NCBI GenBank assembly: GCA_963920705.1
Contig: CAWUCO010000251.1
Coordinates: 620,001-684,000, forward strand
Direction of reading: 5' to 3'
DNA: 64,000 nucleotides
Source: Odiellus spinosus
Taxonomy: Eukaryota; Arthropoda; Arachnida; Opiliones; Phalangiidae
This document shows positions 18,011 to 64,000 of the stretch, piece after piece. The first letter of the stretch is position 1. Every line of letters begins with the position of its first letter. The notes beneath the pieces are model-generated. The model was not told the DNA's origin and did not search any database. It saw nothing but the letters and a program-made list of their open reading frames with translations. Made by a program: the position numbers and the translations under genes.

Positions 18011-18574
18011 AATTGAGACAAATATAAAATTGGTTAAAATTAAGCAAAAACACTTAAAAATCCAATATTATTGGATTCAAATGGACACAAAACTTTTGAT
18101 TTTAAAGCGATTTAGACAAAATTAAGACCACTCGAAAGACCAAATTTTGGTCTATCTAAAAAACAAGAGTTTTGGAAAATCCGTTGAAAAGCCTGGAAAA
18201 TATGGCCAATTCAAAAAACATCTAATATCAAAAAGCGAATTTTTAAAATCTGAAATTTGACTATTTTGATATTGTATGATTTCTTGAATTGGCCATATTT
18301 TTCTTGTTTTTCAACGGATTTTTGAAAATTCTTATTATTTAGACTTTCCATTAATTGCTCTTTCGAATGACTTTGATTTTGTCTAAATTGCAAAATTGAG
18401 ACAAATATAAAATTGGTTAAAATTAAGCAAAAACGCTTAAAAATCCAATATTATTGGATTCAAATGGACACAAAACTTTTGATTTTAAAGCGATTTAGAC
18501 AAAATTAAGACCACTCGAAAGACAAAATTTTGGTCTATCTAAAAAACAAGAGTTTTGGAAAATCCGTTGAAAAA

Positions 18575-21202: not shown

Positions 21203-21254
21203 CCAAATTTTGGTCTATCTAAAAAACAAGAGTTTTGGAAAATCCGTTGAAAAG

Positions 21255-41300: not shown

Positions 41301-41722
41301 TTATTATTTAGACTGTCCATTAATTGCTCTTTCGAATGACTTTGGTTTTGTCTAAATTGCAAAATTGAGACAAATATAAAATTGGTTAAAATTAAGCAAA
41401 AACGCTTAAAAATCCAAGATTATTGGATTCAAATGGACACAAAACTTTTGATTTTAAAGCGATTTAGACAAAATTAAGACCACTCGAAAGAGAAAATATT
41501 GGTCTATCTAAAAAACAAAAGTTTTGGAAAATCCGTTGAAAAACATGGAAAATATGGCCAATTCAAAAAACATCTAATATCAAAAAGCGAATTTTTAAAA
41601 TCTGAAATTTGACTATTTTGATATTGTATGATTTCTTGAATTGGCCATATTTTTCTTGTTTTTCAACGGATTTTTGAAAACTCTTATTATTTAGACTGTC
41701 CATTAATTGCTCTTTCGAATGA
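34629..41722. repeat. 20-monomer segmental duplication, copy 1 (7,657-bp spacing)
   Basis: About 7.1 kb matches 42,286-49,379 at a constant 7,657-bp shift. Private variants present once in each copy are 'tggaacatatagcc' (35421/43078), 'tatcaaaaaagcg' with an extra A (near 35837/43494), 'gatttgttgaattgg' (near 36270/43927), 'ttcctctttagatgac' (37114/44771), 'ggccttattttccatg' (near 37433/45090) and 'gaaaaagatggaaaat' (near 38093/45750). The bounding mismatches are 34628/42285 and 41723/49380. The constant spacing means no net indel between copies. Confidence 0.9.
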
Positions 41723-42486
41723 CTTTGGTTTTGTCTAAATTGCAAAATTGAAACAAATATAAAATTGGTTAAAATTAAGCAAAAACGCTTAAAAATCCAA
41801 GATTATTGGATTCAAATGGACACAAAACTTTTGATTTTAAAGCGATTTAGACAAAATTAAGACCACTCGAAAGACCAAATTTTGGTCTACCTAAAAAACA
41901 AGAGTTTTGGAAAATCCGTTGAAAAACATGGAAAATATGGCCAATTCAAAAAACATCTAATATCAAAAAGCGAATTTTTAAAATCTGAAATTTGACTATT
42001 ATGATATTGTATGATTTCTTGAATTGGCCATATTTTTCTTGTTTTTCAACGGATTTTTGAAAACTCTTATTATTTAGACTGTCCATTAATTGCTCTTTCG
42101 AATGACTTTGGTTTTGTCTAAATTGCAAAATTGAGACAAATATAAAATTGGTTAAAATTAAGCAAAAACGCTTAAAAATCCAAGATTATTGGATTCAAAT
42201 GGACACAAAACTTTTGATTTTAAAGCGATTTAGACAAAATTAAGACCACTCGAAAGAGAAAATATTGGTCTATCTAAAAAACAAAAGTTTTGGAAAATCC
42301 GTTGAAAAACATGGAAAATATGGCCAATTCAAAAAACATCTAATATCAAAAAGCGAATTTTTAAAATCTGAAATTTGACTATTTTGATATTGTATGATTT
42401 CTTGAATTGGCCATATTTTTCTTGTTTTTCAACGGATTTTTGAAAACTCTTATTATTTAGACTGTCCATTAATTGCTCTTTCGAAT
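40975..42486. repeat. 2-monomer tandem duplication (766 bp) inside the 20-monomer block
   Basis: The stretch 40,975-41,720 matches 41,741-42,486. Shared markers are 'attgaaacaaatat' (near 40982 and 41748), 'gactattatgatattg' (near 41228 and 41994) and 'gagaaaatattgg' with 'aacaaaagttttgg' (near 41491 and 42257). The corresponding place in copy 2 of the large block (48.6-49.4 kb) has only one such dimer. The dimer therefore either doubled after the large duplication or marks its junction. Confidence 0.8.
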
Positions 42487-45400
42487 GAATTTGGTTTTGT
42501 CTAAATTGCCAAAACGTGACAAATATAAAATTGGTTAAAATTAAGCAAAAACGCTTAAAAATCCAAGATTATTGGATTCAAATGGTAACAAAACTTTTGA
42601 TTTTTAAGCGATTTAGACAAAATTAAGACCACTCGAAAGAGCAAATATTGGTCTATCTAAAAAACAAGAGTTTTGGAAAATCCGTTGAAAAGCCAGGAAA
42701 ATATGGCCAATTCAAAAAACATCTAATATCAAAAAGCGAATTTTTAAAATCTGAAATTTGACTATTTTGATATTGTATGATTTCTTGAATTGGCCATATT
42801 TTTCTTGTTTTTCAACGGATTTTTGAAAACTCTTATTATTTAGACTGTCCATTAATTGCTCTTTCGAATGACTTTGGTTTTGTCTAAAGTGCAAAATTGA
42901 GACAAATATAAAATTGGTTAAAATTAAGCAAAAACGCTTAAAAATCCAAGATTATTGGATTCAAATGGACACAAAACTTTTGATTTTTAAGCGATTTAGA
43001 CAAAATTAAGACCACTCGAAAGAGCAAATTTTGGTCTATCTAAAAAACAAGAGTTTTGGAAAATCCGTTGAAAAACATGGAACATATAGCCAATTCAAAA
43101 AACATCTAATATCAAAAAGCGAATTTTTAAAATCTGAAATTTGACTATTTTGATATTGTATGATTTCTTGAATTGGCCATATTTTTCTTGTTTTTCAACG
43201 GATTTTTGAAAACTCTTATTATTTAGACTGTCCATTAATTGCTCTTTCGAATGAATTTTGTTTTGTCTAAATTTCCAAAACGTGACAAATATAAAATTGG
43301 TTAAAATTAAGCAAAAACGCTTAAAAATCCAAGATTATTGGATTCAAATGGACACAAAACTTTTGATTTTTAAGCTATTTAGACAAAATTAAGACCACTC
43401 GAAAGAGCAAATATTGGTCTATCTAAAAAACAAGAGTTTTGGAAAATCCGTTGAAAAGCCTGGAAAATATGGCCAATTCAAAAAACATCTAATATCAAAA
43501 AAGCGAATTTTTAAAATCTGAAATTTGACTATTTTGATATTGTATGATTTCTTGAATTGGCCATATTTTTCTTGTTTTTCAACGGATTTTTGAAAACTCT
43601 TAATATTTAGACTGTATATTAATTGCTCTTTCGATGACTTTGGTTTTGTCTAAATTGCAAAATTGTGACAAATATAAAATTGGTTAAAATTAAGCAAAAA
43701 CGCTTAAAAATCCAAGATTATTGGATTCAAATGGACACAAAACTTTTGATTTTTAAGCGATTTAGACAAAATTAAGACCACTCGAAAGAGCAAATATTGG
43801 TCTATCTAAAAAACAAGAGTTTTGGAAAATCCGTTGAAAAACATGGAAAATATGGCCAATTCAAAAAACATCTAATATCAAAAAGCGAATTTTTAAAATC
43901 TGAAATTTGACTATTTTGATATTGTATGATTTGTTGAATTGGCCATATTTTTCTTGTTTTTCAACGGATTTTTGAAAACTCTTATTATTTAGACTGTCCA
44001 TTAATTGCTCTTTCGAATGACTTTGGTTTTGTCTAAATTGCAAAATTGAGACAAATATAAAATTGGTTAAAATTAAGCAAAAACGCTTAAAAATCCAAGA
44101 TTATTGGATTCAAATGGCCACAAAACTTTTGATTTTAAAGCGATTTAGACAAAATTAAGACCACTCGAAAGACCAAATTTTTGTCTACCTAAAAAACAAG
44201 AGTTTTGGAAAATCCGTTGAAAAACATGGAAAATATGGCCAATTCAAAAAACATCTAATATCAAAAAGCGAATTTTTAAAATCTGAAATTTGACTATTTT
44301 GATATTGTATGATTTCTTGAATTGGCCATATTTTTCTTGTTTTTCAACGGATTTTTGAAAACTCTTTTTATTTAGACTGTCCATTAATTGCTCTTTCGAA
44401 TGAATTTGGTTTTGTCTAAATTGCCAAAACGTGACAAATATAAAATTGGTTAAAATTAAGCAAAAACGCTTAAAAATCCAAGATTATTGGATTCAAATGG
44501 ACACAAAACTTTTGATTTTTAAGCGATTTAGACAAAATTAAGACCACTCGAAAGAGCAAATAATGGTCTATCTAAAAAACAAGAGTTTTGGAAAATCCGT
44601 TGAAAAGCCTGGAAAATATGGCCAATTCAAAAAACATCTAATATCAAAAAGCGAATTTTTAAAATCTGAAATTTGACTATTTTGATATTGTATGATTTCT
44701 TGAATTGGCCATATTTTTCTTGTTTTTCAACGGATTTTTGAAAACTCTTAATATTTAGACTGTATATTAATTCCTCTTTAGATGACTTTGGTTTTGTCTA
44801 AATTGCAAAATTGTGACAAATATAAAATTGGTTAAAATTAAGCAAAAACACTTAAAAATCCAATATTATTGGATTCAAATGGACACAAAACTTTTGATTT
44901 TAAAGCGATTTAGATAAAATCAACACGTATCGAAAGAGCAAATATTGGTCTATCTAAAAAACAAGAGTTTTGGAAAATCCGTTGAAAAGCCTGGAAAATA
45001 TGGCCAATTCAAAAAACATCTAATATCAAAAAGCGAATTTTTAAAATCTGAAATTTGACTATTTTGATATTGTATGATTTCTTGAATTGGCCTTATTTTC
45101 CATGTTTTTCAACGGATTTTTGAAAACTCTTATTATTTAGACTGTCCATTAATTGCTCTTTCGAATGAATTTGGTTTTGTCTAAATTGCAAAATTGAGAC
45201 AAATATAAAATTGGTTAAAATTAAGCAAAAACGCTTAAAAATCCAAGATTATTGGATTCAAATGGACACAAAACTTTTGATTTTTAAGCGATTTAGACAA
45301 AATTAAGACCACTCGAAAGAGCAAATATTAGTCTATCTAAAAAACAAGAGTTTTGGAAAATCCGTTGAAAAACATGGAAAATATGGCCAATTCAAAAAAC

Positions 45401-48400
45401 ATCTAATATCAAAAAGCGAATTTTTAAAATCTGAAATTTGACTATTTTGATATTGTATGATTTCTTGAATTGGCCATATTTTTCTTGTTTTTCAACGGAT
45501 TTTTGAAAACTCTTATTATTTAGACTGTCCATTAATTGCTCTTTCGAATGACTTTGGTTTTGTCTAAATTGCAAAATTGAGACAAATATAATATTGGTTA
45601 AAATTAAGCAAAAACGCTTAAAAATCCAAGATTATTGGATTCAAATGGACACAAAACTTTTGATTTTAAAGCGATTTAGACAAAATTAAGACCACTCGAA
45701 AGACCAAATTTTGGTCTACCTAAAAAACAAGAGTTTTGGAAAATCCGTTGAAAAAGATGGAAAATATGGCCAATTCAAAAAACATCTAATATCAAAAAGC
45801 GAATTTTTAAAATCTGAAATTTGACTATTATGATATTGTATGATTTCTTGAATTGGCCATATTTTTCTTGTTTTTCAACGGATTTTTGAAAACTCTTATT
45901 ATTTAGACTGTCCATTAATTGCTCTTTCGAATGAATTTTGTTTTGTCTAAATTGCCAAAACGTGACAAATATAAAATTGGTTAAAATTAAGCAAAAACGC
46001 TTAAAAATCCAAGATTATTGGATTCAAATGGACACAAAACTTTTGACTTTTAAGCTATTTAGACAAAATTAAGACCACTCGAAAGAGCAAATTTTGGTCT
46101 ATCTAAAAAACAAGAGTTTTGGAAAATCCGTTGAAAAACATGGAAAATATGGCCAATTCAAAAAACATCTAATATCAAAAAGCGAATTTTTAAAATCTGA
46201 AATTTGACTATTTTGATATTGTATGATTTCTTGAATTGGCCATATTTTTCTTGTTTTTCAACGGATTTTTGAAAACTCTTAATATTTAGACTGTATATTA
46301 ATTGCTCTTTCGATGACTTTGGTTTTGTCTAAATTGCAAAATTGTGACAAATATAAAATTGGTTAAAATTAAGCAAAAACGCTTAAAAATCCAAGATTAT
46401 TGGATTCAAATGGTAACAAAACTTTTGATTTTTAAGCGATTTAGACAAAATTAAGACCACTCGAAAGAGCAAATTTTGGTCTATCTAAAAAACAAGAGTT
46501 TTGGAAAATCCGTTGAAAAACATGGAAAATATGGCCAATTCAAAAAAAATCTAATATCAAAAAGCGAATTTTTAAAATCTGAAATTTGACTATTTTGATA
46601 TTGTATGATTTCTTGAATTGGCCATATTTTTCTTGTTTTTCAACGGATTTTTGAAAACTCTTATTATTTAGACTGTCCATTAATTGCTCTTTCGAATGAC
46701 TTTGGTTTTGTCTAAATTGCAAAATTGAGACAAATATAATATTGGTTAAAATTAAGCAAAAACGCTTAAAAATCCAAGATTATTGGATTCAAATGGACAC
46801 AAAACTTTTGATTTTAAAGCGATTTAGACAAAATTAAGACCACTCGAAAGACCAAATTTTGGTCTACCTAAAAAACAAGAGTTTTGGAAAATCCGTTGAA
46901 AAACATGGAAAATATGGCCAATTCAAAAAACATCTAATATCAAAAAGCGAATTTTTAAAATCTGAAATTTGACTATTATGATATTGTATGATTTCTTGAA
47001 TTGGCCATATTTTTCTTGTTTTTCAACGGATTTTTGAAAACTCTTATTATTTAGACTGTCCATTAATTGCTCTTTCGAATGAATTTTGTTTTGTCTAAAT
47101 TGCCAAAACGTGACAAATATAAAATTGGTTAAAATTAAGCAAAAACGCTTAAAAATCCAAGATTATTGGATTCAAATGGACACAAAACTTTTGACTTTTA
47201 AGCTATTTAGACAAAATTAAGACCACTCGAAAGAGCAAATTTTGGTCTATCTAAAAAACAAGAGTTTTGGAAAATCCGTTGAAAAACATGGAAAATATGG
47301 CCAATTCAAAAAACATCTAATATCAAAAAGCGAATTTTTAAAATCTGAAATTTGACTATTTTGATATTGTATGATTTCTTGAATTGGCCATATTTTTCTT
47401 GTTTTTCAACGGATTTTTGAAAACTCTTATTATTTAGACTGTCCATTAATTGCTTTTTCGAATGACTTTGGTTTTGTCTAAATTGCAAAATTGAGACAAA
47501 TATAAAATTGGTTAAAATTAAGCAAAAACGCTTAAAAATCCAAGATTATTGGATTCAAATGGACACAAAACTTTTGATTTTTAAGCTATTTAGACAAAAT
47601 TAAGACCACTCGAAAGAGCAAATTTTGGTCTATCTAAAAAACAAGAGTTTTGGAAAATCCGTTGAAAAACATGGAAAATATGGCCAATTCAAAAAACATC
47701 TAATATCAAAAAGCGAATTTTTAAAATCTGAAATTTGACTATTTTGATATTGTATGATTTCTTGAATTGGCCATATTTTTCTTGTTTTTCAACGGATTTT
47801 TGAAAACTCTTATTATTTAGACTGTCCATTAATTGCTCTTTCGAATGAATTTTGTTTTGTCTAAATTTCCAAAACGTGACAAATATAAAATTTTTTAAAA
47901 TTAAGCAAAAACGCTTAAAAATCCAAGATTATTGGATTCAAATGGACACAAAACTTTTGATTTTTAAGCTATTTAGACAAAATTAAGACCACTCGAAAGA
48001 GCAAATATTGGTCTATCTAAAAAACAAGAGTTTTGGAAAGTCCGTTGAAAAGCCTGGAAAATATGGCCAATTCAAAAAACATCTAATATCAAAAAGCGAA
48101 TTTTTAAAATCTGATATTTGACTATTTTGATATTGTATGATTTCTTGACTTGGCCATATTTTTCTTGTTTTTCAACGGATTTTTGAAAACTCTTAATATT
48201 TAGACTGTATATTAATTGCTCTTTCGATGACTTTGGTTTTGTCTAAGTTGCAAAATTGTGACAAATATAAAATTGGTTAAAATTAAGCAAAAACGCTTAA
48301 AAATCCAAGATTATTGGATTCAAATGGTAACAAAACTTTTGATTTTTAAGCGATTTAGACAAAATTAAGACCACTCGAAAGAGCAAATTTTGGTCTATCT

Positions 48401-49379
48401 AAAAAACAAGAGTTTTGGAAAATCCGTTGAAAAACATGGAAAATATGGCCAATTCAAAAAAAATCTAATATCAAAAAGCGAATTTTTAAAATCTGAAATT
48501 TGACTATTTTGATATTGTATGATTTCTTGAATTGGCCATATTTTTCTTGTTTTTCAACGGATTTTTGAAAACTCTTATTATTTAGACTGTCCATTAATTG
48601 CTCTTTCGAATGACTTTGGTTTTGTCTAAATTGCAAAATTGAAACAAATATAAAATTGGTTAAAATTAAGCAAAAACGCTTAAAAATCCAAGATTATTGG
48701 ATTCAAATGGACACAAAACTTTTGATTTTAAAGCGATTTAGACAAAATTAAGACCACTCGAAAGACCAAATTTTGGTCTACCTAAAAAACAAGAGTTTTG
48801 GAAAATCCGTTGAAAAACATGGAAAATATGGCCAATTCAAAAAACATCTAATATCAAAAAGCGAATTTTTAAAATCTGAAATTTGACTATTATGATATTG
48901 TATGATTTCTTGAATTGGCCATATTTTTCTTGTTTTTCAACGGATTTTTGAAAACTCTTATTATTTAGACTGTCCATTAATTGCTCTTTCGAATGACTTT
49001 GGTTTTGTCTAAATTGCAAAATTGAGACAAATATAAAATTGGTTAAAATTAAGCAAAAACGCTTAAAAATCCAAGATTATTGGATTCAAATGGACACAAA
49101 ACTTTTGATTTTAAAGCGATTTAGACAAAATTAAGACCACTCGAAAGAGAAAATATTGGTCTATCTAAAAAACAAAAGTTTTGGAAAATCCGTTGAAAAA
49201 CATGGAAAATATGGCCAATTCAAAAAACATCTAATATCAAAAAGCGAATTTTTAAAATCTGAAATTTGACTATTTTGATATTGTATGATTTCTTGAATTG
49301 GCCATATTTTTCTTGTTTTTCAACGGATTTTTGAAAACTCTTATTATTTAGACTGTCCATTAATTGCTCTTTCGAATGA
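42286..49379. repeat. 20-monomer segmental duplication, copy 2
   Basis: Second copy of the block. No difference from copy 1 was found at any private site compared, including linker variants such as 'aaattttttaaaattaag' (near 40230/47887) and 'tgtctaagttgc' (near 40583/48240). The homogeneity over about 7 kb, in an array where unrelated monomers differ by several percent, implies a recent event or a collapsed/duplicated assembly path. The copies are separated by about 560 bp that belongs to the internal 766-bp duplication. Confidence 0.9.
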
Positions 49380-50171
49380 ATTTTGTTTTGTCTAAATTTC
49401 CAAAACGTGACAAATATAAAATTTTTTAAAATTAAGCAAAAACGCTTAAAAATCCAAGATTATTGGATTCAAATGGACACAAAACTTTTGATTTTTAAGC
49501 TATTTAGACAAAATTAAGACCACTCGAAAGAGCAAATATTGGTCTATCTAAAAAACAAGAGTTTTGGAAAGTCCGTTGAAAAGCCTGGAAAATATGGCCA
49601 ATTCAAAAAACATCTAATATCAAAAAGCGAATTTTTAAAATCTGATATTTGACTATTTTGATATTGTATGATTTCTTGACTTGGCCATATTTTTCTTGTT
49701 TTTCAACGGATTTTTGAAAACTCTTAATATTTAGACTGTATATTAATTGCTCTTTCGATGACTTTGGTTTTGTCTAAGTTGCAAAATTGTGACAAATATA
49801 AAATTGGTTAAAATTAAGCAAAAACGCTTAAAAATCCAAGATTATTGGATTCAAATGGTAACAAAACTTTTGATTTTTAAGCGATTTAGACAAAATTAAG
49901 ACCACTCGAAAGAGCAAATTTTGGTCTATCTAAAAAACAAGAGTTTTGGAAAATCCGTTGAAAAACATGGAAAATATGGCCAATTCAAAAAAAATCTAAT
50001 ATCAAAAAGCGAATTTTTAAAATCTGAAATTTGACTATTTTGATATTGTATGATTTCTTGAATTGGCCATATTTTTCTTGTTTTTCAACGGATTTTTGAA
50101 AACTCTTATTATTTAGACTGTCCATTAATTGCTCTTTCGAATGACTTTGGTTTTGTCTAAATTGCAAAATT
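47843..50171. repeat. 4-monomer tandem repeat at the right end of the 20-monomer block (1,531-bp shift)
   Basis: The stretch 47,843-48,640 matches 49,374-50,171. It includes 'gaattttgttttgtc', 'ctaaatttccaaaacg', 'aaattttttaaaattaag', 'ggaaagtccgttg', 'ctgatatttgac', 'ttgacttggccat' and 'ctaagttgcaaaattg'. The second copy starts within a few bases of where the 7,657-bp match ends (49,379), so the array switches from one parent alignment to the other at this point. This marks a recombination junction inside a monomer right arm. Confidence 0.82.
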
Positions 50172-52847
50172 GAGACAAATATAAAATTGGTTAAAATTAA
50201 GCAAAAACGCTTAAAAATCCAAGATTATTGGATTCAAATGGACACAAAACTTTTGATTTTAAAGCGATTTAGACAAAATTAAGACCACTCGAAAGACCAA
50301 ATTTTGGTCTACCTAAAAAACAAGAGTTTTGGAAAATCCGTTGAAAAACATGGAAAATATGGCCAATTCAAAAAACATCTAATATCAAAAAGCGAATTTT
50401 TAAAATCTGAAATTTGACTATTATGATATTGTATGATTTCTTGAATTGGCCATATTTTTCTTGTTTTTCAACGGATTTTTGAAAACTCTTATTATTTAGA
50501 CTGTCCATTAATTGCTCTTTCGAATGAATTTTGTTTTGTCTAAATTGCCAAAACGTGACAAATATAAAATTGGTTAAAATTAAGCAAAAACGCTTAAAAA
50601 TCCAAGATTATTGGATTCAAATGGACACAAAACTTTTGACTTTTAAGCTATTTAGACAAAATTAAGACCACTCGAAAGAGCAAATATTGGTCTATCTAAA
50701 AAACAAGAGTTTTGGAAAATCCGTTGAAAAGCCTGGAAAATATGGCCAATTCAAAAAACATCTAATATCCAAAAGCGAATTTTTAAAATCTTAAATTTGA
50801 CTATTTTGATATTGTATGATTTCTTGAATTTGCCATATTTTTCTTGTTTTTCAACGGATTTTTGAAAACTCTTATTATTTAGACTTTCTAATAATTGCTC
50901 TTTCGAATGACTTTGGTTTTGTCTAAATTGCCAAAACGTGACAAATATAAAATTGGTTAAAATTAAGCAAAAACGCTTAAAAGTCCAAGATTATTGGATT
51001 CAAATGGACACAAAACTTTTGATTTTTAAGCTATTTAGACAAAATTAAGACCACTCGAAAGACCAAATTTTATTCTATCTAAAAAATTAGAGTTTTGGAA
51101 AATCCGTTGAAAAACATGGAAAATATGGCCAATTCAAAAAACATCTAATATCAAAAAGCGAATTTTTAAAATCTGAAATTTGACTATTTTGATATTGTAT
51201 GATTTCTTGAATTGGCCATATTTTTCTTGTTTTTCAACGGATTTTTGAAAACTCTTAATATTTAGACTGTCCATTAATTGCTCTTTCGATGACTTTGGTT
51301 TTGTCTAAATTGCAAAATTGTGACAAATATAAAATTGGTTAAAATTAAGCAAAAACACTTAAAAATCTAAGATTATTGGATTCAAATGGACACAAAACTT
51401 TTGATTTTAAAGCGATTAAGACAAAATTAAGACCACTCGAAAGACCAAATTTTGGTCTATCTAAAAAAACAAGAGTTTTGGAAAATCCGTTGAAAAACAT
51501 GGAAAATATGGCCAATTCAAAAAACATCTAATATCAAAAAGCGAATTTTTAAAATCTGAAATTTGACTATTTTGATATTGTATGATTTCTTGAATTGGCC
51601 ATATTTTTCTTGTTTTTCAACGGATTTTTGAAAACTCTTATTATTTAGACTGTCCATTAATTGCTCTTTCGAATGAATTTGGTTTTGTCTAAATTGCCAA
51701 AACGTGACAAATATAAAATTGGTTAAAATTAAGCAAAAACGCTTAAAAATCCAAGATTATTGGATTCAAATGGTAACAAAACATTTGATTTTTAAGCGAT
51801 TTAGACAAAATCAACACGTATCGAAAGAGCAAATTTTATTCTATCTAAAAAACAAGAGTTTTGGAAAATCCGTTGAAAAACCTGGAAAATATGGCCAATT
51901 CAAAAAACATCTAATATCAAAAAGCAGATTTTTAAAATCTGAAATTTGACTATTTTGATATTGTATGATTTCTTGAATTGGCCATATTTTTCTTGTTTTT
52001 CAACGGATTTTTGAAAACTCTTATTATTTAGACTGTCCATTAATTGCTCTTTCGAATGACTTTGGTTTTGTCTAAATTGCCAAAACGTGACAAATATAAA
52101 ATGGGTTGAAATGAAGCTAAAACGCTTAAAAATCAAACATTATTGGATTCAAATGGACACAAAACATTTGATTTTTAAGCGATTTAGACAAAATTAACAC
52201 GTATCGAAAGAGCAAATATTGGTCTATCTAAAAAACAAGAGTTTTGGAAAATCCGTTGAAAAACATGGAAAATATAGCCAATTCAAAAAACATCTAATAT
52301 CAAAAAGCGAATTTTTAAAATCTGAAATTTGACTATTTTGATATTGTATGATTTCTTGAATTGGCCACATTTTTCTTGTTTTTCAACGGATTTTTGAAAA
52401 CTCTTATTATTTAGACTGTCCATTAATTGCTCTTTCGAATGACTTTGGTTTTGTCTAAATTGCCAAAACGTGACAAATATAAAATTGGTTAAAATTAAGC
52501 AAAAACGCTTAAAAATCCAAGATTATTGGATTCAAATGGACACAAAACTTTTGATTTTTAAGCGATTTAGACAAAATTAAGACCACTCGAAAGAGCAAAT
52601 ATTAGTCTATCTAAAAAACAAGAGTTTTGGAAAATCCGTTGAAAAACATGGAAAATATGGCCAATTCAAAAAACATCTAATATCAAAAAGCGAATTTTTA
52701 AAATCAGAAATTTGACTATTTTGATATTGTATGATTTCTTGAATTGGCCATATTTTTCTTGTTTTTCAACGGATTTTTGAAAACTCTTAATATTTAGACT
52801 GTCCATTAATTGCTCTTTCGATGACTTTGGTTTTGTCTAGATTGCAA
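50172..52847. repeat. Transition zone of diverged monomers
   Basis: About seven monomers lie here. The first resembles the 38-39 kb types ('gactattatgatattg', 'ttgacttttaagctattt'). It is followed by units with private changes: 'gactttctaataattgc' (50.88 kb), 'attttattctatc' with 'aaaaaattagag' (51.07 kb), 'gcgattaagac' (51.41 kb) and an extra A in 'ctaaaaaaacaag' (51.46 kb). At 51.8 and 52.2 kb the 'aacacgtatcg' left-arm haplotype appears; the 52.2-kb copy keeps TAA ('aattaacacg'). No higher-order unit was found and no gene. Confidence 0.7.
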
Positions 52848-55800
52848 AATTGTGACAAATATAAAATTGGTTAAAATTAAGCAAAAACACTTAAAAATCC
52901 AAGATTATTGGATTCAAATGGACACAAAACTTTTGATTTTAAAGCGATTAAGACAAAATTTAGACCACTCGAAAGACCAAATTTTGGTCTATCTAAAAAA
53001 CAAGAGTTTTGGAAAATCCGTTGAAAAACATGGAAAATATGGCCAATTCAAAAAACATCTAATATCAAAAAGTGAATTTTTAAAATCTGAAATTTGACTA
53101 TTTTGATATTGTATGATTTCTTGAATTGGCCATATTTTTCTTGTTTTTCAACGGATTTTTGAAAACTCTTATTATTTAGACTGTCCATTAATTGCTCTTT
53201 CGAATGAATTTGGTTTTGTCTAAATTGCCAAAACGTGACAAATATAAAATTGGTTAAAATTAAGCAAAAACGCTTAAAAACCCAAGATTATTGGATTCAA
53301 ATGGTAACAAAACATTTGATTTTTAAGCGATTTAGACAAAATCAACACGTATCGAAAGAGCAAATATTGGTCTATCTAAAAAACAAGAGTTTTGGAAAAT
53401 CCGTTGAAAAACATGGAAAATATGGCCAATTCAAAAAACATCTAATATCAAAAAGCGAATTTTTAAAATCTGAAATTTGACTATTTTGATATTGTATGAT
53501 TTCTTGAATTGGCCATATTTTTCTTGTTTTTCAACGGATTTTTGAAAACTCTTATTATTTAGACTGTCCATTAATTGCTCTTTCGAATGACTTTGGTTTT
53601 GTCTAAATTGCCAAAACGCGACAAATATAAAATTGGTTAAAATTAAGCAAAAACGCTTAAAAATACAAGATTATTGGATTCAAATGGACACAGAACTTTT
53701 GATTTTTAAGCGATTTAGACAAAATTAAGACCACTCGAAAGAGCAAATATTGGTCTATCTAAAAAACAAGAGTTTTGGAAAATCCGTTGAAAAGCCTGGA
53801 AAATATGGCCAATTCAAAAAACATCTAATATCAAAAAGCGAATTTTTAAAATCTGAAATTTGACTATTTTGATATTGTATGATTTCTTGAATTGGCCATA
53901 TTTTTCTTGTTTTTCAACGGATTTTTGAAAACTCTTATTATTTAGACTGTCCATTAATTGCTCTTTCGAATGACTTTGGTTTTGTCTAAATTGCAAAATT
54001 GTGACAAATATAAAATTGGTTAAAATTAAGCAAAAACACTTAAAAATCCAAGATTATTGGATTCAAATGGACACAAAACTTTTGATTTTAAAGCGATTTA
54101 GACAAAATTAAGACAACTCGAAAGACCAAATTTTGGTCTATCTAAAAAACAAGAGTTTTGGAAAATCCGTTGAAAAACATGGAAAATATGGCCAATTCAA
54201 AAAACATCTAATATCCAAAAGCGAATTTTTAAAATCTGAAATTTGACTATTTTGATATTGTATGATTTCTTGAATTTGCCATATTTTTCTTGTTTTTCAA
54301 CGGATTTTTGAAAACTCTTATTATTTAGACTGTCCATTAATTGCTCTTTCGATGACTTTGGTTTGTCTAAATTGCAAAATTGTGACAAATATAAAATTGG
54401 TTAAAATTAAGCAAAAACGCTTAAAAATCCAAGATTATTGGATTCAAATGGACACAAAACTTTTGATTTTTAAGCGATTTAGACAAAATTAAGACCACTC
54501 GAAAGAGAAAATATTGGTCTATCTAAAAAACAAGAGTTTTGGAAAATCCGTTGAAAAACATCGAAAATATGGCCAATTCAAAAAACATCTAATATCCAAA
54601 AGCGAATTTTTAAAATCTGAAATTTGACTATTTTGATATTGTATGATTTCTTGAATTGGCCATATTTTTCTTGTTTTTCAACGGATTTTTGAAAACTCTT
54701 ATTATTTAGACTGTCTATTAATTGCTCTTTCGAATGACTTTGGTTTTGTCTAAATTGCCAAAACGTGACAAATATAAAATGGGTTGAAATGAAGCTAAAA
54801 CGCTTAAAAATCAAACATTATTGGATTCAAATGGACACAAAACATTTGATTTTTAAGCGATTTAGACAAAATCAACACCTATCGAAAGAGCAAATATTGG
54901 TCTATCTAAAAAACAAGAGTTTTGGAAAATCCGTTGAAAAACCTGGAAAATATGGCCAATTCAAAAAACATCTAATATCAAAAAGCAAATTTTTAAAATC
55001 TGAAATTTGACTATTTTGATATTGTATGATTTCTTGAATTGGCCATATTTTTCTTGTTTTTCAACGGATTTTTGAAAACTCTTATTATTTAGACTGTCCA
55101 TTAATTCTCTTTCGAATGACTTTGGTTTTGTCTAAATTGCAAAATTGAGACAAATATAAAATTGGTTAAAATTAAGCAAAAACGCTTAAAAATCCAAGAT
55201 TATTGGATTCAAATGGACACAAAACGTTTGATTTTTAAGCGATTTAGACAAAATTAAGACCACTCGAAAGAGAAAATAGTGGTCTATCTAAAAAACAAGA
55301 GTTTTTGAAAATACGTTGAAAAACATGGAAAATATGGCCAATTCAAAAAACATCTAATATCAAAAAGCGAATTTTTAAAATCTGAAATTTGACTATTTTG
55401 ATATTGTATGATTTCTTGAATTGGCCATATTTTTCTTGTTTTTCAACGGATTTTTGAAAACTCTTATTATTTAGACTGTCCATTAATTGCTCTTTCGAAT
55501 GAATTTTGTTTTGTCTAAATTTCCAAAACGTGACAAATATAAAATTGGTTAAAATTAAGCAAAAACGCTTAAAAATCCAAGATTATTGGATTCAAATGGA
55601 CACAAAACTTTTGATTTTAAAGCGATTTAGACAAAATTAAGACCACTCGAAAGAGAAAATATTGGTCTATCTAAAAAACAAAAGTTTTGGAAAATCCGTT
55701 GAAAAACATGGAAAATATGGCCAATTCAAAAAACATCTAATATCAAAAAGCGAATTTTTAAAATCTGAAATTTGACTATTTTGATATTGTATGATTTCTT

Positions 55801-56291
55801 GAATTGGCCATATTTTTCTTGTTTTTCAACGGATTTTTGAAAACTCTTATTATTTAGACTGTCCATTAATTGCTCTTTCGAATGAATTTTGTTTCGTCTA
55901 AATTTCCAAAACGTGACAAATATAAAATTTTTTTAAAATTAAGCAAAAACGTTTAAAAATCCAAGATTATTGGATTCAAATGGACACAAAACTTTTGATT
56001 TTTAAGCTATTTAGACAAAATTAAGACCACTCGAAAGAGCAAATATTGGTCTATCTAAAAAACAAGAGTTTTGGAAAGTCCGTTGAAAAGCCTGGAAAAT
56101 ATGGCCAATTCAAAAAACATCTAATATCAAAAAGCGAATTTTTAAAATCTGATATTTGACTATTTTGATATTGTATGATTTCTTGAATTGGCCATATTTT
56201 TCTTGTTTTTCAACGGATTTTTGAAAACTCTTAATATTTAGACTGTATATTAATTGCTCTTTCGATGACTTTGGTTTTGTCTAAATTGCAT
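52848..56291. repeat. 9-monomer tandem duplication, copy 1 (3,444 bp)
   Basis: This matches the next 3,444 bp throughout. Shared private markers are 'aaaatttagaccactcg' (near 52954/56398), 'acgcttaaaaacccaag' (near 53270/56714), 'acgcgacaaat' with 'aaaatacaag' and 'gacacagaac' (53.62-53.70 and 57.06-57.14 kb), 'agacaactcg' (near 54111/57555), 'gactttggtttgtc' (near 54354/57798), 'aacaccta' (near 54873/58317), 'ttaattctctttcg' with two bases lost (near 55099/58543) and 'tttgtttcgtc' (near 55888/59332). One difference was noticed: 'aaatccaag' near 52898 versus 'aaattcaag' near 56342. Confidence 0.9.
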
Positions 56292-59200
56292 AATTGTGAC
56301 AAATATAAAATTGGTTAAAATTAAGCAAAAACACTTAAAAATTCAAGATTATTGGATTCAAATGGACACAAAACTTTTGATTTTAAAGCGATTAAGACAA
56401 AATTTAGACCACTCGAAAGACCAAATTTTGGTCTATCTAAAAAACAAGAGTTTTGGAAAATCCGTTGAAAAACATGGAAAATATGGCCAATTCAAAAAAC
56501 ATCTAATATCAAAAAGTGAATTTTTAAAATCTGAAATTTGACTATTTTGATATTGTATGATTTCTTGAATTGGCCATATTTTTCTTGTTTTTCAACGGAT
56601 TTTTGAAAACTCTTATTATTTAGACTGTCCATTAATTGCTCTTTCGAATGAATTTGGTTTTGTCTAAATTGCCAAAACGTGACAAATATAAAATTGGTTA
56701 AAATTAAGCAAAAACGCTTAAAAACCCAAGATTATTGGATTCAAATGGTAACAAAACATTTGATTTTTAAGCGATTTAGACAAAATCAACACGTATCGAA
56801 AGAGCAAATATTGGTCTATCTAAAAAACAAGAGTTTTGGAAAATCCGTTGAAAAACATGGAAAATATGGCCAATTCAAAAAACATCTAATATCAAAAAGC
56901 GAATTTTTAAAATCTGAAATTTGACTATTTTGATATTGTATGATTTCTTGAATTGGCCATATTTTTCTTGTTTTTCAACGGATTTTTGAAAACTCTTATT
57001 ATTTAGACTGTCCATTAATTGCTCTTTCGAATGACTTTGGTTTTGTCTAAATTGCCAAAACGCGACAAATATAAAATTGGTTAAAATTAAGCAAAAACGC
57101 TTAAAAATACAAGATTATTGGATTCAAATGGACACAGAACTTTTGATTTTTAAGCGATTTAGACAAAATTAAGACCACTCGAAAGAGCAAATATTGGTCT
57201 ATCTAAAAAACAAGAGTTTTGGAAAATCCGTTGAAAAGCCTGGAAAATATGGCCAATTCAAAAAACATCTAATATCAAAAAGCGAATTTTTAAAATCTGA
57301 AATTTGACTATTTTGATATTGTATGATTTCTTGAATTGGCCATATTTTTCTTGTTTTTCAACGGATTTTTGAAAACTCTTATTATTTAGACTGTCCATTA
57401 ATTGCTCTTTCGAATGACTTTGGTTTTGTCTAAATTGCAAAATTGTGACAAATATAAAATTGGTTAAAATTAAGCAAAAACACTTAAAAATCCAAGATTA
57501 TTGGATTCAAATGGACACAAAACTTTTGATTTTAAAGCGATTTAGACAAAATTAAGACAACTCGAAAGACCAAATTTTGGTCTATCTAAAAAACAAGAGT
57601 TTTGGAAAATCCGTTGAAAAACATGGAAAATATGGCCAATTCAAAAAACATCTAATATCCAAAAGCGAATTTTTAAAATCTGAAATTTGACTATTTTGAT
57701 ATTGTATGATTTCTTGAATTTGCCATATTTTTCTTGTTTTTCAACGGATTTTTGAAAACTCTTATTATTTAGACTGTCCATTAATTGCTCTTTCGATGAC
57801 TTTGGTTTGTCTAAATTGCAAAATTGTGACAAATATAAAATTGGTTAAAATTAAGCAAAAACGCTTAAAAATCCAAGATTATTGGATTCAAATGGACACA
57901 AAACTTTTGATTTTTAAGCGATTTAGACAAAATTAAGACCACTCGAAAGAGAAAATATTGGTCTATCTAAAAAACAAGAGTTTTGGAAAATCCGTTGAAA
58001 AACATCGAAAATATGGCCAATTCAAAAAACATCTAATATCCAAAAGCGAATTTTTAAAATCTGAAATTTGACTATTTTGATATTGTATGATTTCTTGAAT
58101 TGGCCATATTTTTCTTGTTTTTCAACGGATTTTTGAAAACTCTTATTATTTAGACTGTCTATTAATTGCTCTTTCGAATGACTTTGGTTTTGTCTAAATT
58201 GCCAAAACGTGACAAATATAAAATGGGTTGAAATGAAGCTAAAACGCTTAAAAATCAAACATTATTGGATTCAAATGGACACAAAACATTTGATTTTTAA
58301 GCGATTTAGACAAAATCAACACCTATCGAAAGAGCAAATATTGGTCTATCTAAAAAACAAGAGTTTTGGAAAATCCGTTGAAAAACCTGGAAAATATGGC
58401 CAATTCAAAAAACATCTAATATCAAAAAGCAAATTTTTAAAATCTGAAATTTGACTATTTTGATATTGTATGATTTCTTGAATTGGCCATATTTTTCTTG
58501 TTTTTCAACGGATTTTTGAAAACTCTTATTATTTAGACTGTCCATTAATTCTCTTTCGAATGACTTTGGTTTTGTCTAAATTGCAAAATTGAGACAAATA
58601 TAAAATTGGTTAAAATTAAGCAAAAACGCTTAAAAATCCAAGATTATTGGATTCAAATGGACACAAAACGTTTGATTTTTAAGCGATTTAGACAAAATTA
58701 AGACCACTCGAAAGAGAAAATAGTGGTCTATCTAAAAAACAAGAGTTTTTGAAAATACGTTGAAAAACATGGAAAATATGGCCAATTCAAAAAACATCTA
58801 ATATCAAAAAGCGAATTTTTAAAATCTGAAATTTGACTATTTTGATATTGTATGATTTCTTGAATTGGCCATATTTTTCTTGTTTTTCAACGGATTTTTG
58901 AAAACTCTTATTATTTAGACTGTCCATTAATTGCTCTTTCGAATGAATTTTGTTTTGTCTAAATTTCCAAAACGTGACAAATATAAAATTGGTTAAAATT
59001 AAGCAAAAACGCTTAAAAATCCAAGATTATTGGATTCAAATGGACACAAAACTTTTGATTTTAAAGCGATTTAGACAAAATTAAGACCACTCGAAAGAGA
59101 AAATATTGGTCTATCTAAAAAACAAAAGTTTTGGAAAATCCGTTGAAAAACATGGAAAATATGGCCAATTCAAAAAACATCTAATATCAAAAAGCGAATT

Positions 59201-59776
59201 TTTAAAATCTGAAATTTGACTATTTTGATATTGTATGATTTCTTGAATTGGCCATATTTTTCTTGTTTTTCAACGGATTTTTGAAAACTCTTATTATTTA
59301 GACTGTCCATTAATTGCTCTTTCGAATGAATTTTGTTTCGTCTAAATTTCCAAAACGTGACAAATATAAAATTTTTTTAAAATTAAGCAAAAACGTTTAA
59401 AAATCCAAGATTATTGGATTCAAATGGACACAAAACTTTTGATTTTTAAGCTATTTAGACAAAATTAAGACCACTCGAAAGAGCAAATATTGGTCTATCT
59501 AAAAAACAAGAGTTTTGGAAAGTCCGTTGAAAAGCCTGGAAAATATGGCCAATTCAAAAAACATCTAATATCAAAAAGCGAATTTTTAAAATCTGATATT
59601 TGACTATTTTGATATTGTATGATTTCTTGAATTGGCCATATTTTTCTTGTTTTTCAACGGATTTTTGAAAACTCTTAATATTTAGACTGTATATTAATTG
59701 CTCTTTCGATGACTTTGGTTTTGTCTAAATTGCATAATTGTGACAAATATAAAATTGGTTAAAATTAAGCAAAAAC
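56292..59776. repeat. 9-monomer tandem duplication, copy 2
   Basis: Directly abuts copy 1. The match at a 3,444-bp shift runs from 52,848/56,292 to 56,332/59,776, about 40 bp longer than one unit. The two copies are thus complete and head to tail, with the join inside the linker that carries 'ttgcataattgtgac' (56.29 and 59.73 kb). After 59,776 the array continues with a different monomer type ('caaaaacgctt' in place of 'caaaaacactt'). Confidence 0.9.
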
Positions 59777-61064
59777 GCTTAAAAATCCAAGATTATTGGA
59801 TTCAAATGGTAACAAAACTTTTGATTTTTAAGCGATTTAGACAAAATTAAGACCACTCGAAAGAGCAAATTTTGGTCTATCTAAAAAACAAGAGTTTTGG
59901 AAAATCCGTTGAAAAACATGGAAAATATGGCCAATTCAAAAAAAATCTAATATCAAAAAGCGAATTTTTAAAATCTGAAATTTGACTATTTTGATATTGT
60001 ATGATTTCTTGAATTGGCCATATTTTTCTTGTTTTTCAACGGATTTTTGAAAACTCTTATTATTTAGACTGTCCATTAATTGCTCTTTCGAATGACTTTG
60101 GTTTTGTCTAAATTGCAAAATTGAGACAAATATAAAATTGGTTAAAATTAAGCAAAAACGCTTAAAAATCCAAGATTATTGGATTCAAATGGACACAAAA
60201 CTTTTGATTTTAAAGCGATTTAGACAAAATTAAGACCACTCGAAAGACCAAATTTTGGTCTACCTAAAAAACAAGAGTTTTGGAAAATCCGTTGAAAAAC
60301 ATGGAAAATATGGCCAATTCAAAAAACATCTAATATCAAAAAGCGAATTTTTAAAATCTGAAATTTGACTATTATGATATTGTATGATTTCTTGAATTGG
60401 CCATATTTTTCTTGTTTTTCAACGGATTTTTGAAAACTCTTATTATTTAGACTGTCCATTAATTGCTCTTTCGAATGAATTTTGTTTTGTCTAAATTGCC
60501 AAAACGTGACAAATATAAAATTGGTTAAAATTAAGCAAAAACGCTTAAAAATCCAAGATTATTGGATTCAAATGGACACAAAACTTTTGACTTTTAAGGT
60601 ATTTAGACAAAATTAAGACCACTCGAAAGAGCAAATTTTGGTCTATCTAAAAAACAAGAGTTGGAAAATCCGTTGAAAAACATGGAAAATATGGCCAATT
60701 CAAAAAACATCTAATATCAAAAAGCGAATTTTTAAAATCTGAAATTTGACTATTTTGATATTGTATGATTTCTTGAATTGGCCATATTTTTCTTGTTTTT
60801 CAACGGATTTTTGAAAACTCTTAATATTTAGACTGTCCATTAATTGCTCTTTCGATGACTTTGGTTTTGTCTAGATTGCAAAATTGTGACAAATATAAAA
60901 TTGGTTAAAATTAAGCAAAAACACTTAAAAATCCAAGATTATTGGATTCAAATGGACACAAAACTTTTGATTTTAAAGCGATTAAGACAAAATTAAGACC
61001 ACTCGAAAGACCAAATTTTGGTCTATCTAAAAAACAAGAGTTTTGGAAAATCCGTTGAAAAACA
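59777..61064. repeat. Transition monomers
   Basis: Three to four monomers resemble the 46.4-47.3 kb types: 'caaaaaaaatctaatatc', 'gactattatgatattg' and 'cttttgacttttaag'. One has 'acttttaaggtatttag' near 60592 and a 2-bp loss in 'caagagttggaaaatcc' near 60655. Another repeats the 'ctagattgcaaaattgtg' and 'gcgattaagac' markers seen at 52.84-52.95 kb, so it is related to the monomer preceding the 9-monomer unit. No gene seen. Confidence 0.7.
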
Positions 61065-61270
61065 TGGAAAATATGGCCAATTCAAAAAACATCTAATATC
61101 AAAAAGCGAATTTTTAAAATCTGAAATTTGACTATTTTGATATTGTATGATTTCTTGAATTGGCCATATTTTTCTTGTTTTTCAACGGATTTTTGAAAAC
61201 TCTTATTATAATTAGACTGTCCATTAATTGCTCTTTCGAATGAATTTGGTTTTGTCTAAATTGCCAAAAC

Positions 61271-61306
61271 GTGACAAATATAAAATTGGTTAAAATTAAG
61301 CAAAAA
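61271..61306 (+). other. Linker of the monomer, with a TATA-like stretch
   Basis: This is the only part of the monomer that is not clearly in an inverted repeat. It is A+T rich and contains 'tataaaa' at 61279-61285, present in nearly every monomer. A TATA-like heptamer in DNA this AT-rich is expected often by chance, so promoter activity is not claimed. The linker holds useful subfamily markers: 'gtgaca', 'gagaca', 'gcgaca' or 'gaaaca' at its left end, and 'ggttaaaatt' versus 'ttttaaaatt' in the middle. Confidence 0.6.
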
Positions 61307-61365
61307 CGCTTAAAAATCCAAGATTATTGGATTCAAATGGTAACAAAACATTTGATTTTTAAGCG
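61307..61365. repeat. Small inverted repeat with nested alternative hairpin
   Basis: The segment begins with cgcttaaaaatc (61307-61318) and ends with its exact reverse complement gatttttaagcg (61354-61365): a 12-bp perfect stem with a 35-nt loop. Inside lies a second hairpin, aatccaa (61315-61321) and ttggatt (61327-61333), with a 5-nt loop. The two share 61315-61318, so they are mutually exclusive folds. Many monomers carry 'cacttaaaaatc' on the left or 'gattttaaagcg' on the right, which weakens the outer stem. These changes are not compensatory, so there is no evidence that the outer pairing is under selection. The inner stem is kept in most monomers. Confidence 0.85.
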
Positions 61366-61366
61366 A

Positions 61367-61643
61367 TTTAGACAAAATCAACACGTATCGAAAGAGCAAA
61401 TATTGGTCTATCTAAAAAACAAGAGTTTTGGAAAATCCGTTGAAAAACATGGAAAATATGGCCAATTCAAAAAACATCTAATATCAAAAAGCGAATTTTT
61501 AAAATCTGAAATTTGACTATTTTGATATTGTATGATTTCTTGAATTGGCCATATTTTTCTTGTTTTTCAACGGATTTTTGAAAACTCTTATTATTTAGAC
61601 TGTCCATTAATTGCTCTTTCGAATGACTTTGGTTTTGTCTAAA
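61367..61643. repeat. Long imperfect palindrome, about 277 bp, one per monomer
   Basis: The left arm starts at 'tttagac' (61367) and the right arm ends at 'gtctaaa' (61643). Reading the right arm backwards on the other strand reproduces the left arm in order: gacaaaa, tcgaaagagcaa, aagagtttt, aaaatccgttgaaaaaca, aaaatatggccaattcaa, aatatcaaaa, with the centre near 61505 in 'aaaatctgaaattt'. Over the 108 nt of arm from 'tttagac' to the 'ttcaaaaaa' element, 89 positions match (82%) without a gap. Beyond that the arms stay alignable with small gaps to the centre, so there is almost no spacer. The same architecture is seen in monomers across the window. The likely origin is an inverted duplication of a half-unit of about 140 bp; a transposon with long terminal inverted repeats is an alternative source. 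Confidence 0.93.
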
Positions 61644-61649
61644 TTGCAA
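61467..61649 (-). other. 60-codon antisense open frame in the satellite (not called a gene)
   Basis: This frame reads the right palindrome arm on the minus strand and overlaps the plus-strand frame tail to tail by 50 bp. It begins with TTG; its first ATG is codon 15. Equivalent 60-codon frames (63-80 codons in a few variants) occur in several dozen monomers. It contains the block NKSFQKSVEKQEKYGQFKK, matching NKSFGKSVEKHGKYGQFKK of the opposite strand, because both read the two arms of the same palindrome. No family was recognised. I consider it a by-product of the inverted repeat. Confidence 0.7.
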
Positions 61650-62980
61650 AAACGCGACAAATATAAAATTGGTTAAAATTAAGCAAAAACGCTTAAAAAT
61701 ACAAGATTATTGGATTCAAATGGACACAAAACTTTTGATTTTTAAGCGATTTAGACAAAATTAAGACCACTCGAAAGAGCAAATATTGGTCTATCTAAAA
61801 AACAAGAGTTTTGGAAAATCCGTTGAAAAGCCTGGAAAATATGGCCAATTCAAAAAACATCTAATATCAAAAAGCGAATTTTTAAAATCTGAAATTTGAC
61901 TATTTTGATATTGTATGGTTTCTTGAATTAGCCATATTTTTCTTGTTTTTCAACGGATTTTTGAAAACTCTTATTATTTAGACTGTCCATTAATTGCTTT
62001 TTCGAATGACTTTGGTTTTGTCTAAATTGCAAAATTGAGACAAATATAAAATTGGTTAAAATTAAGCAAAAACGCTTAAAAATCCAAGATTATTGGATTC
62101 AAATGGACACAAAACTTTTGATTTTAAAGCGATTGAGACAAAATTAAGACCACTCGAAAGAGCAAATTTTAGTCTATCTAAAAAACAAGAGTTTTGGAAA
62201 ATCCGTTGAAAAACATGGAAAATATGGCCAATTCAAAAACATCTAATATCAAAAAGCGAATTTTTAAAATCTGAAATTTGACTATTTTGATATTGTATGA
62301 CTTCTTGAATTGGCCATATTTTTCTTGTTTTTCAACGGATTTTTGAAAACTCTTATTATTTAGACTGTCCATTAATTGCTCTTTCGAATGACTTTGGTTT
62401 TGTCTAAATTGCAAAATTGAGACAAATATAAAATTGGTTAAAATTAAGCAAAAACGCTTAAAAATCCAAGATTATTGGATTCAAATGGACACAAAACTTT
62501 TGATTTTAAAGCGATTTAGACAAAATTAAGACCACTCGAAAGAGAAAATATTGGTCTATCTAAAAAACAAAAGTTTTGGAAAATCCGTTGAAAAACATGG
62601 AAAATATGGCCAATTCAAAAAACATCTAATATCAAAAAGCGAATTTTTAAAATCTGAAATTTGACTATTTTGATATTGTATGATTTCTTGAATTGGCCAT
62701 ATTTTTCTTGTTTTTCAACGGATTTTTGAAAACTCTTATTATTTAGACTGTCCATTAATTGCTCTTTCGAATGAATTTTGTTTTGTCTAAATTTCCAAAA
62801 CGTGACAAATATAAAATTTTTTAAAATTAAGCAAAAACGCTTAAAAATCCAAGATTATTGGATTCAAATGGACACAAAACTTTTGATTTTTAAGCTATTT
62901 AGACAAAATTAAGACCACTCGAAAGAGCAAATATTGGTCTATCTAAAAAACAAGAGTTTTGGAAAGTCCGTTGAAAAGCC

Positions 62981-64000
62981 TGGAAAATATGGCCAATTCA
63001 AAAAACATCTAATATCAAAAAGCGAATTTTTAAAATCTGAAATTTGACTATTTTGATATTGTATGATTTCTTGAATTGGCCATATTTTTCTTGTTTTTCA
63101 ACGGATTTTTGAAAACTCTTATTATAATTAGACTGTCCATTAATTGCTCTTTCGAATGAATTTGGTTTTGTCTAAATTGCCAAAACGTGACAAATATAAA
63201 ATTGGTTAAAATTAAGCAAAAACGCTTAAAAATCCAAGATTATTGGATTCAAATGGTAACAAAACATTTGATTTTTAAGCGATTTAGACAAAATCAACAC
63301 GTATCGAAAGAGCAAATATTGGTCTATCTAAAAAACAAGAGTTTTGGAAAATCCGTTGAAAAACATGGAAAATATGGCCAATTCAAAAAACATCTAATAT
63401 CAAAAAGCGAATTTTTAAAATCTGAAATTTGACTATTTTGATATTGTATGATTTCTTGAATTGGCCATATTTTTCTTGTTTTTCAACGGATTTTTGAAAA
63501 CTCTTATTATTTAGACTGTCCATTAATTGCTCTTTCGAATGACTTTGGTTTTGTCTAAATTGCAAAAACGCGACAAATATAAAATTGGTTAAAATTAAGC
63601 AAAAACGCTTAAAAATACAAGATTATTGGATTCAAATGGACACAAAACTTTTGATTTTTAAGCGATTTAGACAAAATTAAGACCACTCGAAAGAGCAAAT
63701 ATTGGTCTATCTAAAAAACAAGAGTTTTGGAAAATCCGTTGAAAAGCCTGGAAAATATGGCCAATTCAAAAAACATCTAATATCAAAAAGCGAATTTTTA
63801 AAATCTGAAATTTGACTATTTTGATATTGTATGGTTTCTTGAATTAGCCATATTTTTCTTGTTTTTCAACGGATTTTTGAAAACTCTTATTATTTAGACT
63901 GTCCATTAATTGCTTTTTCGAATGACTTTGGTTTTGTCTAAATTGCAAAATTGAGACAAATATAAAATTGGTTAAAATTAAGCAAAAACGCTTAAAAATC
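62981..64000. repeat. 5-monomer unit, copy 2, cut by the window edge
   Basis: This matches 61,065-62,084 to the last base of the window with no mismatch noticed in the marker regions, so the unit very likely continues beyond 64,000. The monomer just before it (62.8-62.98 kb) carries the 'aaattttttaaaattaag' and 'ggaaagtccg' haplotype of 47.9 and 49.4 kb, giving the breakpoint between two parental monomer orders. Confidence 0.8.

Follow-up and report, generated by a model that had tools for sequence, protein, structure and literature searches.

A palindromic 383-bp satellite DNA in which the inverted arms probably recombine and reverse parts of the arrays

In Tribolium madens, dyad symmetry of satellite DNA is found at three levels, namely in short repeats, in a palindrome-like sequence of ~600 bp in the satellite TmSat2, and in macro-dyads of up to 75 kb; a (peri)centromeric role is suggested by the authors, who also state that experimental evidence is missing (PMC13081366). 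Macro-dyads have been proposed to help specify centromeres. In addition, an origin of satellite DNA from the tandem units of a foldback element has been proposed for Tetris (PMC4079207).

The stretch of DNA analysed here, termed the window, comprises 64,000 bases and consists throughout of one satellite with a period of 383 bp, present in 167.2 copies at 95% matches (Tandem Repeats Finder; Table 1). In our preferred reading, which we hold to be probable, it represents a palindromic satellite in which the arms of the unit constitute a built-in inversion substrate, exchanging with each other and turning stretches of the array.

Table 1. Features of the window, with positions counted from its first base
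Feature	Position	Strand	Remarks
Satellite array	1..64000	+	167.2 copies with a period of 383 bp, all in one orientation; on contig C248, bases 620001-684000
Unit named in the preliminary description	61271..61653	+	phase arbitrary
Weak second dyad	61307..61365	+	12-bp inverted repeat 61307-61318 / 61354-61365; consensus 351-362 / 15-26
Large imperfect dyad	61355..61652	+	consensus 16-313, 298 bp; 120 of 146 aligned consensus pairs Watson-Crick
Left 18-bp inverted block AAAATATGGCCAATTCAA	61453..61470	+	consensus 114-131; elsewhere bounds a centre flip and hosts a strand switch
20-bp stretch with the lowest variation	61495..61514	+	consensus 156-175, on the dyad axis (about 61503/61504)
Right copy of the 18-bp block AAAATATGGCCAATTCAA	61540..61557	-	consensus 201-218

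Architecture and folding of the unit

The consensus was built from the 165 complete units of the window, 111 of which measure exactly 383 bp. Each unit is composed of a ~298-bp palindrome, the arms of which are ~80% alike, and an 85-bp spacer, and it is the entire unit that undergoes amplification and homogenisation. In an alignment of 166 units of the window, 114 are distinct and the mean difference between units is 3.9%. Adjacent units are not each other's nearest relatives: near-identical pairs (up to four differences) account for 0% of the pairs at a distance of one unit but for 14% at nine, 12% at 20 and at four, and 11% at five units, and the array therefore contains patchy higher-order repeats. 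Within the unit, consensus positions 299-318 (about 61638-61657 of the window) are hypervariable with 10% variation, and positions 309, 313 and 314 each carry two common alleles near 50:50. Two other identities of the repeat were rejected: for a structured RNA, Rfam returned microRNA models for 60000-64000, which score 20-29 bits where the cut-offs are 48-230, while for a prokaryotic or phage origin a search with two units yielded three records only, with short and weak matches. A viral-contig pattern search gave six hits.

A preliminary description of this DNA had depicted the unit as an imperfect palindrome of about 277 bp, with arms meeting at the centre, to which a second dyad of 59 bp was joined by nesting. 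The palindrome is real, but it spans ~298 bp, and its central ~60 bp pair poorly, so that the arms do not meet cleanly at the centre. In the unit at 61271..61653, the inverted arms (61358-61474 and 61536-61652, 117 nt each) are 81% complementary and are separated by 61 nt. The inverted segments, which make up 298 of the 383 bp, lie beyond chance: the dyad alignment score of the consensus is 340, compared with 68.9 ± 13.1 (largest 106) in 300 dinucleotide shuffles, and the folding check against shuffled controls that the preliminary description had suggested came out positive, the consensus folding as DNA at -100.0 kcal/mol versus -35.4 ± 4.0 in 200 shuffles (z = -16.2) and each of 165 units folding better than every one of its own ten shuffles. 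As for the second dyad, its perfect 12-bp inverted repeat is present but close to what chance provides, given that 2.65% of 2,000 shuffles produce one with a spacer no longer than 60; of 166 units in the window, 54 retain both arms intact (135 of 528 units in all); moreover, the two dyads overlap by ~11 bp instead of being nested. The least variable stretch of the unit among all 20-bp windows coincides with the axis of the large dyad and shows 0.5% mean variation versus 2.6% over the unit, which favours a role of the axis, although a 40-bp window centred on the axis only ranks 17th of 383 for low variation.

Pairing within the stem was followed through an alignment of 528 units, of which 389 are distinct; besides the window, it drew on another 23 loci, located on C248 and C107. 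Median variation amounts to 0.76% at stem, 1.14% at mismatched and 0.95% at unpaired positions, with means of 2.4%, 2.4% and 3.3%, respectively, and stem positions are no better conserved than mismatched ones in this alignment. At the paired sites of the distinct units, 2,086 single-sided changes are accompanied by 15 double changes, comprising four compensatory and 11 non-compensatory ones, while 26 of 59 minor alleles at mismatched sites would restore pairing, compared with 22.8 expected from the mutation spectrum. Hence, no sign of selection on base-pairing of the stem is seen in these 528 units, which form a young sample whose divergence of ~4% limits the test. In duplex DNA, extrusion of the 298-bp dyad would cost ~+180 kcal/mol because of its mismatches and poorly pairing centre, that of consensus 75-255 ~+100 kcal/mol, and that of a perfect palindrome constructed from the left arm +10 kcal/mol, all three figures being rough balances from nearest-neighbour values, before supercoiling energy. 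CENP-B-box-like sites number 0 in the window at up to one mismatch from the box consensus, with 3.0 expected by chance; a CENP-B box is not required in all lineages.

Array orientation and exchange between the arms

The genome search covered 443,074,358 bases in 286 contigs. A unit-specific 24-mer finds 74,061 matches at up to two mismatches, 36,267 on the plus and 37,794 on the minus strand (control, two and one), and the orientations of the satellite are thus nearly equal genome-wide. Provided that one match equals one unit, the ~74,000 units add up to ~28.4 Mb, a share of ~6.4% in 443 Mb, and the 383-bp repeat is a major satellite DNA of this eukaryote genome, which apparently belongs to an arthropod. 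Some of the long contigs, among them C6 (24.9 Mb), C8 and C18 (9.9 Mb), bear large arrays. On C18, other repeats are found at 1-300 (ATTTGAAAAACACG) and 1.15-1.30 Mb (GGTCGTTGCCAACAACTG...). Contig C1 starts with mixed TCAGG/TTAGG telomere-like repeats (74-413), with a strand change at about 160, and many short interstitial TTAGG runs are scattered along it. The mitochondrial contig C286 (L047) carries animal-type DNA, in which COII directly follows COI with no tRNA-Leu between them, an adjacency that we take to be the Limulus-type order and to be chelicerate- or myriapod-like, away from insects; several nuclear COI copies lie on C17. A beetle, to which the TCAGG repeats had pointed at first, was rejected in view of this gene order.

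In the stretches sampled, the array on C248 extends from ~263 kb to ~1,107 kb and is interrupted near 738 kb by one or more insertions. The single orientation of about 167 dyads emphasised in the preliminary description applies inside the window, but the array reverses 103 kb past the window's end: it reads in the plus direction up to 787,052 and in the minus direction from 787,061, and the join was mapped to the base and is free of N. At this point consensus 281 is connected to 191 via ~8 bp of filler, outside the 18-bp block (Table 1), and the junction has one copy in the genome. This single reversal links arms of about 523 and 320 kb. On both sides the array is flanked in mirrored fashion by a 22-bp satellite, TTTTTCATTTTTCAAGTCAAAC, at about 140-262 kb and 1,108-1,138 kb; a sample at 226 kb, amid the former stretch, is other DNA. 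Samples of 150-300 bp locate further reversals to within an interval, with four such intervals on C215, one on C168 and one on C18; samples this short may mislead where units are recombinant. The sample at C215:390001 (plus, 92.6%) was left out of the count because it lies inside a unit with a flipped centre. Two simple schemes were discarded, namely a fixed order of unique, plus, minus and unique DNA for all arrays, which is broken on C18 and C107, and C248 as one exact 1.23-Mb palindrome. The mirrored ends of this contig (L027 and L041; opposite orientation, 99.4% alike over 7.26 kb) hold open frames that resemble a Polinton/Maverick-type element; the ends may therefore represent a mobile repeat in two copies, and they do not prove that the flank is mirrored.

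Both arms of the dyad include the 18-bp block, in inverted orientation to each other, and 287 exact copies of it are present on the two strands of the window. At C215:399839-400219, a unit matches the consensus at 97.4% when positions 114-218 are inverted and at 92.2% in its plain form, while its neighbour is 98.7% identical to the plain consensus; the inverted centre is bounded by the block and its inverted copy. Among the best 40 candidates of a genome search with this unit, close copies lie on C215, units on C261, C27, C6, C59, C112, C104, C154, C97 and C197 reach 94-96% in direct and 78-81% in inverted orientation, and plain units of C215 match at 92% directly and 85-86% inverted. By these scores, the units on the nine further contigs appear to fit a flipped centre as well. 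The flip on C215, occurring many times in one array, is likely one event. The window itself yielded the conversion at 219/221 only, and no unit with a flipped centre.

Signatures of normal and recombinant units were counted genome-wide at up to one mismatch, whereby 30,520 normal left arms, 3,321 left-type centres on a right-type flank and 245 right-type centres on a left-type flank were obtained, with reversed controls at 0. A count of 4,679 sites at two mismatches was discarded because arm-converted normal units match as well at this threshold. Five of the 3,321 sites were read, all on C6. One of them (L159) shows a left arm with four right-arm states at 91, 92, 111 and 113, and thus a conversion tract. 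At four of the five sites the strand switches from minus to plus inside the 18-bp block without filler, and the break can be placed anywhere within it; private variants are common to these four sites, and they therefore probably go back to one event that was then amplified. Since the two recombinant classes are unequal in size, many of the 3,321 may be conversions like that of L159 and not flips or switches. Partner-arm states at both 219 and 221 occur in 16 units. Adjacent pairs of partner-arm states were observed 26 times, compared with 1.3 (largest 6) in 500 permutations; however, 16 of the 26 are the single allele 219/221 and adjacent changes to a third base, counted without permutation, also number 26, so that this linkage alone is no proof of conversion. 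In summary, the centre flip on C215 and the strand switch on C6 share one and the same 18-bp inverted block.

According to the preferred reading, the unit would have originated from an inverted duplication that became fixed and diverged, together with the 85-bp spacer. Exchange between the arms is what the sequences show, as arm-to-arm conversion, exact inversion of the centre and strand reversal of the array. The inverted blocks would pair within one unit or between units, thereby causing flips or switches and shaping the arrays; since most units carry the block in both directions, head-to-head pairing would be open to any two units, and arrays would invert piecemeal into mosaics of both orientations, including macro-dyads. 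Homologous recombination or template switching may be the route, and hairpins may form on single strands during replication or repair. The dyads of the unit leave recombination scars within one genome in the form of flipped centres, converted arms and a homologous strand switch, and the claim that palindromes inside units lead to array inversions is directly countable in long reads. Going further, the retained pair of 18-bp blocks might act as a recombination module of a self-inverting DNA, which flips centres, exchanges arms, turns arrays and builds macro-dyads here and perhaps in Tribolium; this extension is tentative and rather doubtful as a whole, but if it were true, the nearly invariant dyad axis would be a loop or protein contact of that reaction.

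A foldback transposon with satellite units

Outside the arrays, isolated copies of the satellite occur on C1-C5, and six of the eight fetched have one central reversal in common, from consensus 352 to 120. This reversal exists at 14 sites in the genome (13 without mismatch), all on contigs of at least 5 Mb by their coordinates. In the copies on C3 and C4, which were read to both ends, the surroundings of the reversal comprise an insert of 115 bp, 149-bp repeats in mirrored arrangement and terminal inverted repeats, and neither copy contains an open frame of more than 104 codons. The element on C3 measures 5,521 bp, its inverted arms with tandem 149-bp repeats are 98.9% identical over 1,446 bp, and it is 99.97% identical to the copy on C5 over 2.9 kb. 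It is flanked on both sides by a 9-bp target duplication, GTTTGGTTG; of the two copies examined in this respect (2 of 14), that on C4 shows no perfect duplication. Both terminal inverted repeats are present without mismatch in 13 of the 14 copies and one end in the remaining one. Five more copies of the terminal repeat, with one or two mismatches, lie elsewhere and have no satellite junction beside them. Exact motifs of the end (12 bases) and of the 149-bp repeat (16 bases) are absent from the window and from L015-L046.

The C3 element contains three different full-length units, which diverge from each other by 5-6%, and a fourth that is identical to one of them; units of the array differ by 4.4%. 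As the units in the element are as diverse as those of the array and the element copies are nearly identical, a recent capture of a diverse array is indicated; most likely, judging from these sequences, the element took up a piece of an array that was already diversified. A palindromic piece would accordingly have been captured by a foldback-type transposon and then spread to 14 chromosomal sites, which ties this highly abundant satellite to a foldback transposon of recent spread. At C7:12543801-12554542, an inverted pair of variant terminal repeats stands 10.7 kb apart with no satellite junction, and might represent a related element that is longer or autonomous. Two unrelated rearrangements, one near position 652 of L073 and one at position 3725 of the C4 element, have the same break at consensus 281 (...TTTGCTCTTTC), which constitutes a possible breakage hot spot, or chance.

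Competing explanations and described systems

The same observations can be accommodated differently. The satellite could be a passive relic, in which one ancient inverted duplication was fixed by homogenisation and the reversals arose from random breakage or assembly errors; indeed, assembly error within arrays may underlie reversals and flips. Almost no compensatory change is seen, few types of rearrangement occur in the sample, and the C248 junction carries filler and no block; being unique and located outside the block, this junction means that end joining makes reversals, too. On the other hand, the flip on C215 and the switch on C6 fall in the same 18-bp block without filler, and partner-arm states come in runs. 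We consider the relic unlikely. Still less probable, and indeed improbable in our estimate, is an origin of the satellite from the foldback transposon by amplification of tandem units in its arms into arrays, after the manner of Tetris (PMC4079207). The 14 sites with mirror-image units and the same central junction, the mismatch-free terminal inverted repeats (both in 13 copies, one end in another), the target duplication on C3 and the Tetris-like architecture (PMC4079207) all speak for such an origin, but units within the C3 element are as different from one another as those of the array while the element copies differ little, five further terminal-repeat copies stand without the junction, and the motifs of the end and the 149-bp repeat are missing from the window and L015-L046.

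A candidate (peri)centromeric satellite, whose dyad and macro-dyad mark chromatin via hairpin or cruciform, ranks between these two and is in our judgement quite unlikely. It draws on the strong single-strand folding, the large arrays of C6, C8, C18 and other long contigs, the macro-dyad of C248 with its mirrored 22-bp satellite on both sides, the least variable 20 bp on the dyad axis and the parallel in T. madens (PMC13081366). It is opposed by the cost of extrusion before supercoiling, by the near absence of compensatory change together with stem positions that are no more conserved than others, by a window devoid of CENP-B boxes, and by the unique inversion site of C248, as sites in T. madens are kept in thousands of copies (PMC13081366). 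The idea of a dyad- or cruciform-marked centromere voiced in the preliminary description thus stands with regard to single-strand folding and dyad symmetry at the scale of the array, and is not supported with regard to cruciform extrusion, to which both ~+180 kcal/mol before supercoiling and the four compensatory changes run counter. Taken together, the evidence seems to speak more for recombination between arms and turning of arrays than for a signal of the centromere or cruciform kind.

Among described repeats, the subtelomeric satellite HSR1 of hop has a unit of 383-385 bp (PMC12406709, PMC7274563) and was rejected as the identity of the present one, for the two differ in A+T content (61% against 73%), the mitochondrial DNA is of animal type here, and an HSR1 probe fails to match the window with three mismatches allowed. 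The 385-bp satellite of Trichogramma brassicae is nearly equal in unit length and contains inverted segments of 80 bp, while the 1061-bp satellite of Tribolium brevicornis has inverted segments of ~470 bp in its unit, both likenesses being by description (PMC13081366). Tetris of Drosophila virilis resembles the transposon described here as a non-coding foldback element with tandem repeats in inverted arms and target duplications of 8-10 bp, whose AT-rich repeat (TIR-220) is also found in satellite-like arrays (PMC4079207); unlike in Tetris, 14 element copies here face ~74,000 units, and the diversity of the units favours capture by the element over origin of the satellite from it.

The closest likeness, by description and not by alignment of sequences, is to TmSat2 of T. 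madens, in which ~300-bp inverted segments within 704 bp, compared with 383 bp here, form a long imperfect palindrome in the unit with strongly negative fold energy, and arrays reverse orientation as macro-dyads (PMC13081366). The arms of the C248 reversal measure about 523 and 320 kb, whereas the longest macro-dyads of T. madens measure 75 and 26 kb; likewise, the C248 junction exists in one copy, and one junction allele of C6 at four of five sampled sites, whereas INV_2 of T. madens was analysed at 6,428 sites (PMC13081366). Exchange of arms at an inverted block is seen here and does not feature in the T. madens account as available to us (PMC13081366), nor was a precedent for it within a satellite unit found in the portions of the literature searched, which is no proof of novelty. 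Overall, a satellite with a long dyad inside its unit is of a kind already known from TmSat2 and T. brevicornis, and Tetris is the precedent for its foldback element.
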